Positions 21,914 through 30,765 of a DNA stretch of 41,202 nt are shown one piece after another. Source of the stretch: Candidatus Rokuibacteriota bacterium (GTDB taxonomy: Bacteria > Methylomirabilota > Methylomirabilia > Rokubacteriales > CSP1-6); contig QHSP01000065.1 of assembly GCA_003220495.1 (NCBI GenBank), positions 1 through 41,202 on the forward strand, written 5' to 3'. The notes beneath the pieces were generated by a model that was given only the letters and a program-made list of their open reading frames with translations, ran no database searches and was not told where the DNA came from. The translations under genes and the position numbers were made by a program. How positions within the stretch are numbered: position 1 is the first letter of the stretch; each line of letters begins with the position of its first letter.

Positions 21914-22906
21914 ATGAGCATACGCATCGTGCTTGTCGTCGCTCTGCTGCTGCAGCCGGGCTGGTCGCCGGCCGCGGATTTCAAGCCCAAGCTCCCGGCC
22001 GGGCTTCAAGAGGACGCGGCGCAGATCCCGGACGACAACCCGATCACGCCGGAGAAAGTTGCGCTCGGCAAGAAATTCTTCTGGGACACGCGCTGGTCGG
22101 CGTCGGGAACGGTGGCCTGCGTCAGCTGCCACCGGCCCGAGCACGGTTGGAGCGATTCGCGTCGATTCTCGACCGACTTCGCGGGCCGGCCGACGCCGCG
22201 GCACGCGCCGACGATCGTCAACCGGCTTTTCAGCGACCAGCAGCACTGGTCGGGACTGCGGCCCTCGCTGGAGGAGCAAGCCGGGAAGGACGTGAACAAG
22301 ACGGACGAGAAGGTGATGCAGCAGCTGGGAACGATCCCGGCCTATCGCGCTGAATTCCGCGCGGTCTTCGGCCGCGACTTCGATCCCGAGGGCGTGGCCC
22401 AGGCGATCGCCGCCTACGTGCGCACGATCCTCTCGGCCGACTCCCCCTACGATCGCTTCCAGGCGGGCGACCGGAGCGCGATGTCCCTGTCGGCCCAGCG
22501 AGGTCTGCGCCTGTTCGAAGGCAAGGCGATGTGCTCGCGGTGCCACGCGGGCTTCAATTTCACCGGTGAGGGCTACCGCAACATCGGCGTGGGTATGTCG
22601 GGGAAGAATCCCGATCTGGGCCGGTATACCGTCACCGGAGATGATCCCGACCGGGGCGCGTTCAAGACGCCGACGCTCCGGGACGTGGCCCGGCGCGGGC
22701 CGTACATGCACGACGGCAGCGAGACGACGCTCGACGACGTGGTCGCGTACTACGATCGGGGCGGCGTGAAGAACCCGTGGCTCTCGTCGGACATGAAGCC
22801 GCTCGGGCTCACCGCGCAGGAGCGTGCCGATGTGGTCGAGTTCATGAAGGCGTTGACGGGCCGGATCGACCCCGAGGTGAGCCGCCCGCCCGACCTGCCG
22901 AAATAG
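21914..22906 (+). CDS. Dihaem cytochrome c peroxidase (CcpA/MauG family)
   Basis: Periplasmic peroxidase of 330 residues with a signal peptide (RIVLVVALLLQPGWSPAA) and two c-haem sites: CVSCH (Cys69, Cys72, His73; high-potential or peroxidatic half) and CSRCH (Cys207, Cys210, His211). Typical blocks are ITPEKVALGKKFFWDTR near the N-terminus, FKTPTLRDVARRGPYMHDGS and the final EFMKALTG. Family role: reduces hydrogen peroxide with electrons from small cytochromes, or, in MauG-type proteins, modifies other proteins. GTG-started fusion gene follows after 24 bp. Confidence 0.95.
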   Translation: MSIRIVLVVALLLQPGWSPAADFKPKLPAGLQEDAAQIPDDNPITPEKVALGKKFFWDTRWSASGTVACVSCHRPEHGWSDSRRFSTDFAGRPTPRHAPTIVNRLFSDQQHWSGLRPSLEEQAGKDVNKTDEKVMQQLGTIPAYRAEFRAVFGRDFDPEGVAQAIAAYVRTILSADSPYDRFQAGDRSAMSLSAQRGLRLFEGKAMCSRCHAGFNFTGEGYRNIGVGMSGKNPDLGRYTVTGDDPDRGAFKTPTLRDVARRGPYMHDGSETTLDDVVAYYDRGGVKNPWLSSDMKPLGLTAQERADVVEFMKALTGRIDPEVSRPPDLPK

Positions 22907-22930: not shown

Positions 22931-23911
22931 GTGAGCCCCATCGACAGTCTGGAGCTGCTCGCGCAGTACGGGTTCGTGATTCTTCCGATCCTCGTCGTGG
23001 CCGAGCAAGTCGGGGTTCCGCTGCCAGCGGTGCCGGCCCTCCTCGGTGTCGGCGCGCTCGCCGCGGGCGGGCGCGGCAGCATCCCGCTCGTGCTGGGCGC
23101 GATCGCCGTCGTCGCCCTCGCCGTCGATCTGGGATGGTACGAGGTGGGCCGGCGGCGCGGCGCCAGCGTCCTGGCGCGGCTCTGTCGCCTCTCCCTCGAG
23201 CCCGATTCGTGCATCCGGCGAACCCAGGACGTCTTCGCCCGCTACGGCGTGCAGGGCATGCTCGTGGCCAAGTTCCTGCCGGGGCTGACGACGGTCATGC
23301 CGCCCCTGGCCGGCATCTTCGCCGTGGGGCGCCTGCGGTTCGTCGTCTACGAGGTGCTCGGCGTCCTGTTCTGGGCGGGGCTCTGGATGGGGCTGGGCTA
23401 CGTGTTCAGCGACGCGATCGCGACGATCGCGGCTCGGCTCGCCCGGATGGAGCGGGTGCTGGGCGTCGTCGCCGTGGCCGCGATCGCGGGCTACATCGCG
23501 GTCAAGTACGTCCGCCGCCGGCTCTTCATCCGCGCGCTCCGGATCGCCCGCATCTCGCCGCAGACGCTGAAGAGTCGCATCGATGCCGGGGAGGACGTCA
23601 CGATCGTCGATCTCCGGACGCGGCTCGAGGTCGAGGCGACGCCCTTCGCCATCCCGGGGAGCCGCTGGATGTCGATCGACGACCTCGACCAGCACCAGTG
23701 GGAGCTCCTGCGTTCGCGGGAGCTCGTCCTCTATTGCTCCTGACCCAACGAAGCCACGAGCGCCCGGGTGGCGCTTGAGCTGAGACGCCGGGGGATCACG
23801 CGAGTTCACCCGCTGCAGGGCGGCCTCGCCGGCTGGATGACGCTGAACTTCCCCGTCGTGGAGCTCACGCTACCGCCCGCACGGGCAAGCGAGGGCGCGA
23901 CCGCGACGTAG
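22931..23911 (+). CDS. DedA (VTT)-rhodanese fusion selenoprotein; in-frame UGA read as Sec271
   Basis: Residues 1-200 form a DedA/VTT membrane domain: five or six helices and FLPGLTTVMPPLAG. From about residue 210 a rhodanese domain follows (VTIVDLRTRLEVEATPFAIPG). At the active-site loop the gene reads LVLYCS-UGA-PNEATSARVA: UGA at 23741-23743, codon 271. Reading continues in frame for 55 codons with clear rhodanese sequence (RRRGITRVHPLQGGLAGW) to TAG at 23911. Related DedA-rhodanese proteins, as I recall them, have Cys here (CxCPNE), so a CxU motif is inferred, with Cys269 the usual sulfur-carrying residue. A SECIS-like hairpin follows (separate entry). Ending at 23743 would remove half of the rhodanese domain. 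Alternatives are a nonsense mutation or sequencing error. Start is GTG without a clear ribosome site. Confidence 0.8.
23757..23777 (+). promoter_or_regulatory. Candidate bacterial SECIS element of DedA-rhodanese gene
   Basis: Eight-pair stem CGAGCGCC (23757-23764) with GGCGCTTG (23770-23777), one G-U pair, closes a five-base loop CGGGT (23765-23769). The loop begins 21 nt after the UGA and has G at its second position. Bacterial SECIS elements are known to sit inside the coding region just after the UGA, with a G in the first two loop bases and roughly 16-37 nt spacing; this one fits. Confidence 0.65.
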
Positions 23912-26311: not shown

Positions 26312-26473
26312 TCCCAGCGAGCGCGCCGCTCGCCTGGAGCGGTCAGGCGTACCCGGCCGCGTGTTGGCGTGGACGCGGCGCGCGACCTTGGCTAGACTGG
26401 ACGACGCGATGAGAGGATGCGGCCCCGCGATCGCTGCCGTGACGTCGGCGACGAGACTGGAGGAACGCCCGCG

Positions 26474-27406
26474 ATGACGACCACGGCGCCCGCGGTCAAC
26501 CCACCGTTCGCGGCCGACTACGACGCTCCGATCCCGTACATACAACGGACGCGCGACTACTATCAGGTGCTCGGCTTCAACCCCTATCGGTGGGCTCACT
26601 TCGCCGACGTGCCGTTCACGCCGCTCGGGACGCCGCTCGGCGAGGCTCGGGTGGCGCTGATCACGACGGCGGCGCCGTTCCAGCCGGGCGTGGGTGATCA
26701 GGGCCCCGGCGCGGCGTACAACGCCGCGGCCAAGTTCTATCAGGTGTACTCGCTGTCGACCGAGACCATCCCCGATCTCAGGATCTCGCACGTCGGCTAC
26801 GACCGCCTGCACACGACCGCCGCAGACATCAACACGTATCTGCCGCTGGCGCAGCTGAAGACCGCGGCCGCCGCGGGTCGGATCGGGTCGCTCGGGCCGC
26901 GGCTTCACGGCCTGCCGACGAACCGGAGCCACCGGGTGACGATGGAGACCGATGTCCCGGAGCTGCTGCGCCGCTGCCACGAGGACGGAGTCGGCGCCGC
27001 CGTCCTCGTCCCGAGCTGACCCGTGTGTCACCAGACCGTGAGTCTGGCGGCCCGGCACCTGGAGGCGAACGGGATCTCGACCGTGATCGTGGGCTGCGCC
27101 AAGGACATCGTGGAGTTCTGCGGCGTGCCGCGCTTCCTGTTCAGCGATTTCCCGCTCGGCAACTCGGCCGGGCGTCCGTTCGACGTCGAGTCGCAGAGGC
27201 AGACGCTCGAGCTGGCGCTCCAGGTTCTCGAGCGCGCGCCCGGCGGACGCACCACGGTGCAATCCCCGCTTCGCTGGAGCGAGGACGCGTCGTGGAAGCG
27301 CGACTACCTCGATCTGACCAAGCTCTCACCCGACAAGATCGCCGAGCGGAAGAAGGAGTTCGACGAGGTGAAATCCATCGCGCGCGCCAAGCGCGAGGCA
27401 TCATGA
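26474..27406 (+). CDS. GrdB-like (glycine/sarcosine/betaine/proline reductase B family) selenoprotein; UGA read as Sec182
   Basis: Residues 1-181 match the GrdB/PrdB-like family start (DYDAPIPYIQRTRDYYQVLGF, GPGAAYNAAAKFY, HRVTMETDVPELLRRCHEDG). The strand DGVGAAVLVPS runs into UGA (27017-27019, codon 182) and then PVCHQTVSLAARHLEANG, giving a Sec-x-x-Cys motif (Sec182, Cys185) as in known GrdB and PrdB selenoproteins. The frame continues 128 codons past the UGA (CGVPRFLFSDFPLGNSAG, RTTVQSPLRW) to TGA at 27406. A SECIS-like hairpin follows. Total 310 residues, single chain, no partner GrdA/GrdC nearby. Family role is reductive C-N bond cleavage in anaerobes; the role in aerobic lineages is unknown. 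GGAGG lies ten bases before ATG. Its stop overlaps the CoA-transferase start (ATGA). Confidence 0.9.
27027..27051 (+). promoter_or_regulatory. Candidate bacterial SECIS element of GrdB-like gene
   Basis: CCAGAC (27031-27036) pairs perfectly with GTCTGG (27042-27047) around a five-base loop CGTGA (27037-27041). After one A/C mismatch, three more pairs extend it to 27027/27051. The loop begins 17 nt after the UGA and has G at position two. This fits bacterial SECIS rules and resembles the hairpin at 23757. Confidence 0.72.
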
Positions 27407-29725: not shown

Positions 29726-29862
29726 GTTGTCGCCTCCTGTCGCGTGGTGCGCGCGGCAGGCCGTCGCGGGGCTGGGGCGCCGCCGGCCGAGGCGCGCATC
29801 TGAACGAGGATACTCGATTTGCGAAGGGCCCTGACAACAGAGTACCCTCCGGCCCACCGCCG

Positions 29863-30765
29863 ATGAGACTTCAGGGATTTCCGGGCGCTGCCCTCGTCGC
29901 CGGCGCTGGCCTCTTCCTCGCGATGACCGCCCTGCTGGCCGCGTCGCGCGCGCCTGAGGACACGCCGTCCTTCCGGCTCCACGTCGCGGTACCAGACCCG
30001 CTCTTGCTCGCGAGCGGCGCCGCGTTCACCTTGGCGGTCGCCATCGTGATCGGCATCGCCCTCTCGCGCGACCGGCGTCGCGAGGAGGTCGAGCGCGAGG
30101 AGGAGCCGTCGAAGCTTCCGTGGTGGCTCCGGGCGATCTTGCGAGCGCTGCCGCTCCTGCCGCTTCTCGCAATCCTGGTCGCCTTCTCGTTCGGGTGGCA
30201 ATACGTCGAGAGCTCGCTGCTCGCCTGGAGCCGCTTCGTGATGTTCGCCGGGTCGGACCCCGGAGCGCCTCAGCCCGAGCTTCCCGTGCTCTCCCTGCCG
30301 TGGCTCGGATGGCTCGTCGGCCTGCTGCTGCTCCTGGCCGGTCTCGCGACGCTCGCGGTGGCCCTGCTGCTGCTGTTCGCCGAGCGCATCGCCCGGTGGT
30401 GGGAGCGCCGCGATGGCGACGACGCGGCCGAGCCGCTGAGCGAGGCGGTCCAGGAAGGCCTCGACGATCTGGCGAGCGAACCGGACGCCCGCCTGGCGAT
30501 CATCAAGTGCTACCGGCGCTTCGAGCGCGTCGCGGCGCGCGCCCGGGTGGTGCGGGCGCCCTGGCAGACGCCGGACGAGTTCATGCGCGAGGCTCTCCGA
30601 CGCCTGGTGCTGCCGCGTCGCGCGGTGGATCGGCTGACCCGTTTGTTCGAGCTGGCGCGGTTCAGCGCCCATCCGCTCGGGTCGGCGGAGCGCGACACGG
30701 CCCGCGCCTGTCTGGAAGACATCCGATCCGAGCTCGAGCGCGCGGAGGCGACCCTTGGCGCCTGA
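29863..30765 (+). CDS. DUF4129 domain membrane protein
   Basis: A 300-residue protein with a signal-anchor, two further helical regions (LLASGAAFTLAVAIVIGIAL, AILRALPLLPLLAILVAFSFG, WLGWLVGLLLLLAGLATLAVALLLL) and a cytoplasmic C-terminal DUF4129 domain (about 215-295: IIKCYRRFERVAARARVVR, TPDEFMREALR). DUF4129 proteins occur beside transglutaminase-like and MoxR genes. First gene of a five-gene operon in which every downstream junction overlaps. There is no ribosome site at the ATG. Confidence 0.82.
   Translation: MRLQGFPGAALVAGAGLFLAMTALLAASRAPEDTPSFRLHVAVPDPLLLASGAAFTLAVAIVIGIALSRDRRREEVEREEEPSKLPWWLRAILRALPLLPLLAILVAFSFGWQYVESSLLAWSRFVMFAGSDPGAPQPELPVLSLPWLGWLVGLLLLLAGLATLAVALLLLFAERIARWWERRDGDDAAEPLSEAVQEGLDDLASEPDARLAIIKCYRRFERVAARARVVRAPWQTPDEFMREALRRLVLPRRAVDRLTRLFELARFSAHPLGSAERDTARACLEDIRSELERAEATLGA

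Follow-up and report, generated by a model that had tools for sequence, protein, structure and literature searches.

The DNA considered here (the window, a stretch of 41,202 nucleotides from a Candidatus Rokuibacteriota bacterium) contains an open reading frame in which a membrane domain of the DedA family is followed by a rhodanese domain, and a single in-frame TGA lies in the rhodanese active-site loop. The question raised by this locus is whether that UGA ends the protein, is a damaged cysteine codon, or is read as selenocysteine (Sec, U). All of the computational tests agree on a predicted selenoprotein gene, a reading to which we give a probability of about 0.93. Standard gene calling stops at the UGA and would enter the gene as a DedA protein whose tail is broken; a predicted selenoprotein shared by soil and groundwater bacteria from several phyla has therefore probably been missed or truncated in databases.

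Domain organization of the open reading frame

Translation of the frame (Table 1) gives LVLYCS upstream and PNEATSARVAL downstream of the sole internal TGA, codon 271, with 55 further codons before the TAG; the preliminary description had reported this in-frame UGA and the rhodanese sequence continuing beyond it, and translation and Pfam confirm both. The rhodanese domain scores 37.9 bits against PF00581, above the gathering cut-off of 22.2, and its Foldseek matches are rhodaneses. The VTT/DedA half of the window member falls below the PF09335 cut-off of 33.9; it is also matched by the NCBIfam DedA model NF008102 (E=1e-10) and is helical in the structure model. Pfam matches both domains at E<0.001 in all 55 of the near-full-length homologues collected in alignment A2. 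The source genome, to which the window belongs as contig C153, is 5.98 Mb in size and 98% complete, and holds a second DedA-rhodanese copy on contig C71; the closest DedA-rhodanese in a public scan comes from a Candidatus Rokuibacteriota MAG, with 85% identity over the alignment. Across the whole window Rfam gave no matches at gathering thresholds, and ARAGORN found no tRNA.

Table 1. Features of the window discussed in the text, with positions counted from its first nucleotide.
Feature	Position	Strand	Residues	Remarks
Di-haem cytochrome c peroxidase/MauG-like gene	21914..22906	+		Pfam PF03150, 141 bits
DedA-rhodanese ORF, predicted selenoprotein	22931..23911	+		GTG start, TAG stop, 326 codons, single internal TGA; from translation
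VTT/DedA membrane domain	23027..23401	+	33-157	Pfam PF09335, 28.8 bits
Rhodanese domain	23555..23839	+	209-303	Spans the TGA; Pfam PF00581
Cys269 codon TGC, CxU partner cysteine	23735..23737	+	269	Invariant in alignments A1 and A2
In-frame UGA, predicted selenocysteine codon	23741..23743	+	271	UGA or Cys at this column in relatives
SECIS-like hairpin AGCGCC-CGGGT-GGCGCT	23759..23775	+		Pairs, loop and codon bias conserved in UGA forms
GrdB/PrdB-like gene, second predicted selenoprotein	26417..27406	+		TGA 27017-27019, motif UPVC; PF07355 23 bits, TIGR04483 86.6 bits

The protein might be no more than a plain CxU rhodanese of the family NF041203 carrying an extra domain. That model is the top NCBIfam match of the rhodanese half and is found in 55 of 55 homologues, and the CxUP motif is common to both, but the window protein reaches only 75.9 bits, short of the 115-bit cut-off, and over the rhodanese half only, whereas 186.2 bits are reached by a short, apparently exported rhodanese from a related genome. 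We consider this classification possible, though rather unlikely.

The UGA column in related genes

A search of 59 related genomes produced dozens of DedA-rhodanese matches, and the 34 full-length genes read, which include the second copy from the source genome, have TGA at the column in 33 cases and TCA (Ser) in one. The public scan of GTDB genomes, whose loci partly overlap these genes, yielded 80 DedA-rhodanese loci: the column is UGA in 47 (16 labelled Rokuibacteriota, 5 other Methylomirabilota, 22 Acidobacteriota, 3 labelled Deltaproteobacteria and 1 Nitrospirota) and Cys in 33 (30 with TGC or TGT identified by script, 3 more read by eye). Related DedA-rhodanese proteins had been expected to carry Cys here, and relatives have UGA or Cys at the column, with L038 as the lone exception. 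L038 (G003:C534:3283-4251) is a close relative with Ser replacing Sec, found in a MAG with 9% contamination; the same genome also encodes the UGA-form L071, as well as a DedA homologue, L070, in which the frame leaves the family sequence inside the rhodanese part.

The UGA could conceivably act mainly as a stop, in which case cells would chiefly use a DedA domain ending in a short tail, and reading through with Sec would be a minor or regulatory event, dependent for example on selenium. The truncated product would hold the entire DedA domain, and in bacteria Sec insertion is generally in competition with termination. However, every homologue, the Cys forms among them, retains conserved protein sequence in the rhodanese half beyond the UGA, which argues for selection on the full-length protein and makes the mainly-stop reading very unlikely. 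A TGC to TGA point mutation or a sequencing error, leaving a pseudogene cut off in the rhodanese loop, is highly improbable. A single base does separate the TGA from the Cys codons of related genes, but dozens of independently assembled genomes from several phyla have the same TGA, and the codons after it are conserved as protein, without a second stop, in the UGA-bearing homologues; comparison of the window with L034, a relative from the same genus, shows 15 synonymous and 6 nonsynonymous codon differences over the 45 post-UGA codons. With dozens of genomes carrying UGA at this same column, a chance origin is excluded.

The Sec/Cys state requires at least seven changes on a quick tree built with the UGA column removed, in which deep forks are often open. 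One sister pair with full support on that tree, L106 (Cys) and L150 (Sec), differs in state. Such naturally occurring Sec/Cys pairs, some of them near sisters, offer a direct way to test what Sec contributes.

A conserved hairpin downstream of the UGA

The SECIS-like hairpin that had been noted downstream is present; in the window gene it starts 15 nt, and its loop 22 nt, downstream of the UGA, and it is conserved in the UGA forms as AGCGCC-CG(G/U)GU-GGCGCU. Its six pairs are intact in 46-48 of 48 UGA-form sequences, with one compensatory change of C-G to U-A in the stem, and 47 of the 48 have a loop of the form CG(U/G)G(U/C). The loop and several of the pairs have decayed in the Cys forms, and the 5-bp core is found in 45 of 47 UGA forms versus 10 of 30 Cys forms.

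Since the SARVAL stretch of the protein is conserved in its own right, the comparison was extended to codon choice. The hairpin Arg of the UGA forms is encoded by CGU or CGG (AGG once) and by CGC in 0 of 47, whereas CGC accounts for 48% of Arg codons in the same genes; for Ser only AGC and AGU occur, with no UCN, and Val, where present, is always GUG. Mean folding z-scores against synonymous randomization are -0.75 for the UGA forms, -0.19 for the Cys forms and about -0.1 for control windows, a contrast that is modest overall and not significant within the Acidobacteriota alone. Within that phylum, some genes may have acquired the Cys state recently. The CG(U/G)G loop also follows the UGA of the GrdB-like gene of the window and that of a rhodanese on contig C49, in other protein contexts.

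Selenocysteine machinery and the genetic code

The preliminary description had proposed looking for the sel genes in the same genome, and selA, selB, selC and selD are all found there. Profile searches detect tRNA-Sec (selC) at 69.8 bits against a gathering score of 47, selB at 356.6 bits, and selD; the selA frame, which adjoins selB, was recognized from its sequence. SelD is itself a selenoprotein in many bacteria, and that of the source genome (L031, G000:C1:77537-78481), which has one in-frame TGA, is probably a further example.

Among the genomes of the wider family, selB scores above the curated cut-off in 20 of 24 with UGA forms versus 7 of 24 with Cys forms (Fisher p=0.0004). The other four UGA-form genomes comprise two with fragmented selB (G078 and G094), one with only a partial match (G065) and one 2.9 Mb MAG in which no selB was found (G101); MAG incompleteness may explain them.

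Decoding of the UGA as a different residue, Trp for example, by an altered code or a suppressor tRNA has a negligible probability: no support for it was found, and the genome has the full Sec pathway. TGA is the ordinary stop in 6 of 10 window genes checked, which shows that there is no genome-wide change of the code, and relatives have Cys, not Trp, as the alternative at this column.

The active-site loop

The rhodanese loop carries the CxU/CxC motif as CSUPNE in alignment A2, and in place of the canonical six-residue loop C-x-x-G-x-R it reads C-S-U-P-N-E-A-T-S, which is two residues longer and without Arg. The UGA had been placed two residues after the canonical rhodanese cysteine, and this holds only in part. 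Anchored on the upstream beta strand, as in a MAFFT alignment with canonical rhodaneses of the source genome, Cys269 occupies the canonical position and two residues are inserted. HMMER, by comparison, aligns the UGA residue to the canonical catalytic Cys of structure 6mxv with no gap, and counting back from the GG at the domain end also puts Sec271 at the canonical Cys spacing, because the loop is two residues longer. Cys269 and Sec271 both fall within the active-site loop under either alignment. In the AlphaFold model (mean pLDDT 84) a strand ends at residue 268 and a helix starts at 272, placing residues 269-271 between them and Cys and Sec together at the helix N-terminus, an arrangement that appears to resemble a redox pair.

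The DedA half, topology and gene neighborhood

Two acidic and two basic residues (E39/D51 and R130/R136, in E. coli YghB numbering) are reported to be essential in the undecaprenyl-phosphate flippases of this family (PMC10127716). The aligned DedA-rhodanese members keep E39 in all but one case, while D51 is replaced by V, I, L or A, R130 by K, and R136 by T, S or N. Flipping of undecaprenyl phosphate by the DedA half was considered and dropped, as residues reported to be essential are missing relative to YghB, and the DedA carrier is probably not an undecaprenyl-phosphate flippase. A basic stretch, KYVRRR, directly follows the last DedA helix, and with the positive-inside rule it suggests that the rhodanese domain is cytoplasmic.

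The peroxidase/MauG-like gene ends 24 nt upstream of the DedA-rhodanese frame and is possibly co-transcribed with it. Homologues lie upstream of DedA-rhodanese genes at one related Rokubacterial locus and at 12 Nitrospirota loci, the latter of the Cys form; loci with such upstream genes include L083, L118, L125 and L130. Neighbor clustering across phyla gave no conserved operon apart from this peroxidase link, and the recurring neighbor is a weak hint of a redox context.

Other predicted selenoprotein genes of the source genome

A second UGA-containing gene nearby had also been claimed, and it is real: it is GrdB/PrdB-like, with scores below the equivalog cut-offs, and a hairpin CCAGAC-CGUGA-GUCUGG lies downstream of its UGA. 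Outside the window, the C49 rhodanese (L028:2560-2985; G000:C49:43559-43984) has the motif FY-UGA-TCPH, is probably exported and falls below the cut-off of every NCBIfam model. Matches of its type in relatives have TGA in 27 of 30 cases, the position having been read directly in 12. Here Sec stands first in the CxC pair, giving UxC where the window protein has CxU, and this mirrored order suggests that the two CxC positions may act together. A third type, on contig C105 (L027, near 29860-30249, minus strand), combines a trypsin-like protease, S1C/DegP-like by eye, with a membrane helix and a CxUPDE rhodanese, and is conserved in relatives (L077, L078, L079, L081 and L082).

A proposed role for the DedA-rhodanese selenoprotein

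In the mechanism that we propose, SelB and tRNA-Sec, guided by the hairpin, would insert selenocysteine at the UGA, giving a protein with a DedA domain in the membrane and, after it, a rhodanese domain on what is probably the cytoplasmic side, with a predicted active site of Cys269-Ser-Sec271-Pro. The Cys and Sec would form a reversible selenenylsulfide, carry sulfane sulfur as other rhodaneses do, or both, and the site would reduce or shuttle sulfur on behalf of whichever substrate the DedA carrier handles. The membrane redox role suggested in the preliminary description is thus a plausible one. The redox-pair chemistry of Cys269 and Sec271, read from the motif and the residues, has in our estimate about an even chance of being correct, while coupling of the rhodanese site to DedA transport is a doubtful step. 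Taken at its broadest, and only tentatively, the family may be a widely distributed group of membrane selenoproteins whose Cys-x-Sec redox site, housed in an altered rhodanese loop, drives or gates a carrier of the DedA type; the cargo would be a compound of sulfur or selenium, or a lipid that is not undecaprenyl phosphate. The protein would then belong to a set of rhodanese variants within the same organisms with Sec at either CxC position, CxU here and UxC in the C49 protein. The predicted selenoprotein ties selenium use to a membrane transporter family whose link with rhodanese has been called unclear (PMC10127716).

Comparison with known systems

The preliminary description had suggested a likely new selenoprotein form. 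The selenoprotein itself is supported, but its two components have precedents, as CxU rhodaneses and DedA-rhodanese fusions are each known, and only the combination of Sec with a DedA-rhodanese looks unreported in the literature searched. A literature search gave no report of a Sec-containing DedA-rhodanese, an earlier mention in a groundwater Methylomirabilota study being possible, and no link between DedA or VTT proteins and selenoproteins; the main text of the deep-Sep paper mentions neither rhodanese nor DedA.

CxU rhodanese selenoproteins have been catalogued as rhodanese form 3, NF041203 (PMC13188914), and as COG0607 form 2 (PMC9312934). The NF041203 family, "rhodanese_LYCAU", shares with the DedA-rhodanese family the rhodanese domain, the Cys-x-Sec-Pro motif and the exchange between Sec and Cys, but it is a short protein (a 126-position model), whereas the window protein has an N-terminal DedA domain and its rhodanese is probably cytoplasmic. 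One NF041203 member, L080, seems to be exported. Fusions such as Pseudomonas aeruginosa PA1209, from the COG0586 DedA subfamily (PMC10127716, PMC12893004), have the same domain order, DedA and then rhodanese; the two papers mention no selenocysteine in them, and the window family differs in lacking D51 and R136 and in having Lys for R130. TsoB (NF045694) is likewise a selenoprotein in which a rhodanese is joined to a membrane-type partner, but it has a UxxxxU motif with two Sec (PMC13188914) and the partner is DsbD-like; NF045694 matches 17 of the 55 DedA-rhodanese homologues, weakly.

Further rhodanese selenoproteins predicted in the same genomes are the C49 and C105 types, which share the modified rhodanese loop and the CG(U/G)G hairpin loop but have different partner domains, with Sec at the first CxC position in the C49 type. 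A Methylomirabilota MAG has been reported with 63 predicted selenoprotein genes (PMC13188914), and the selenoprotein richness found here agrees with that count.
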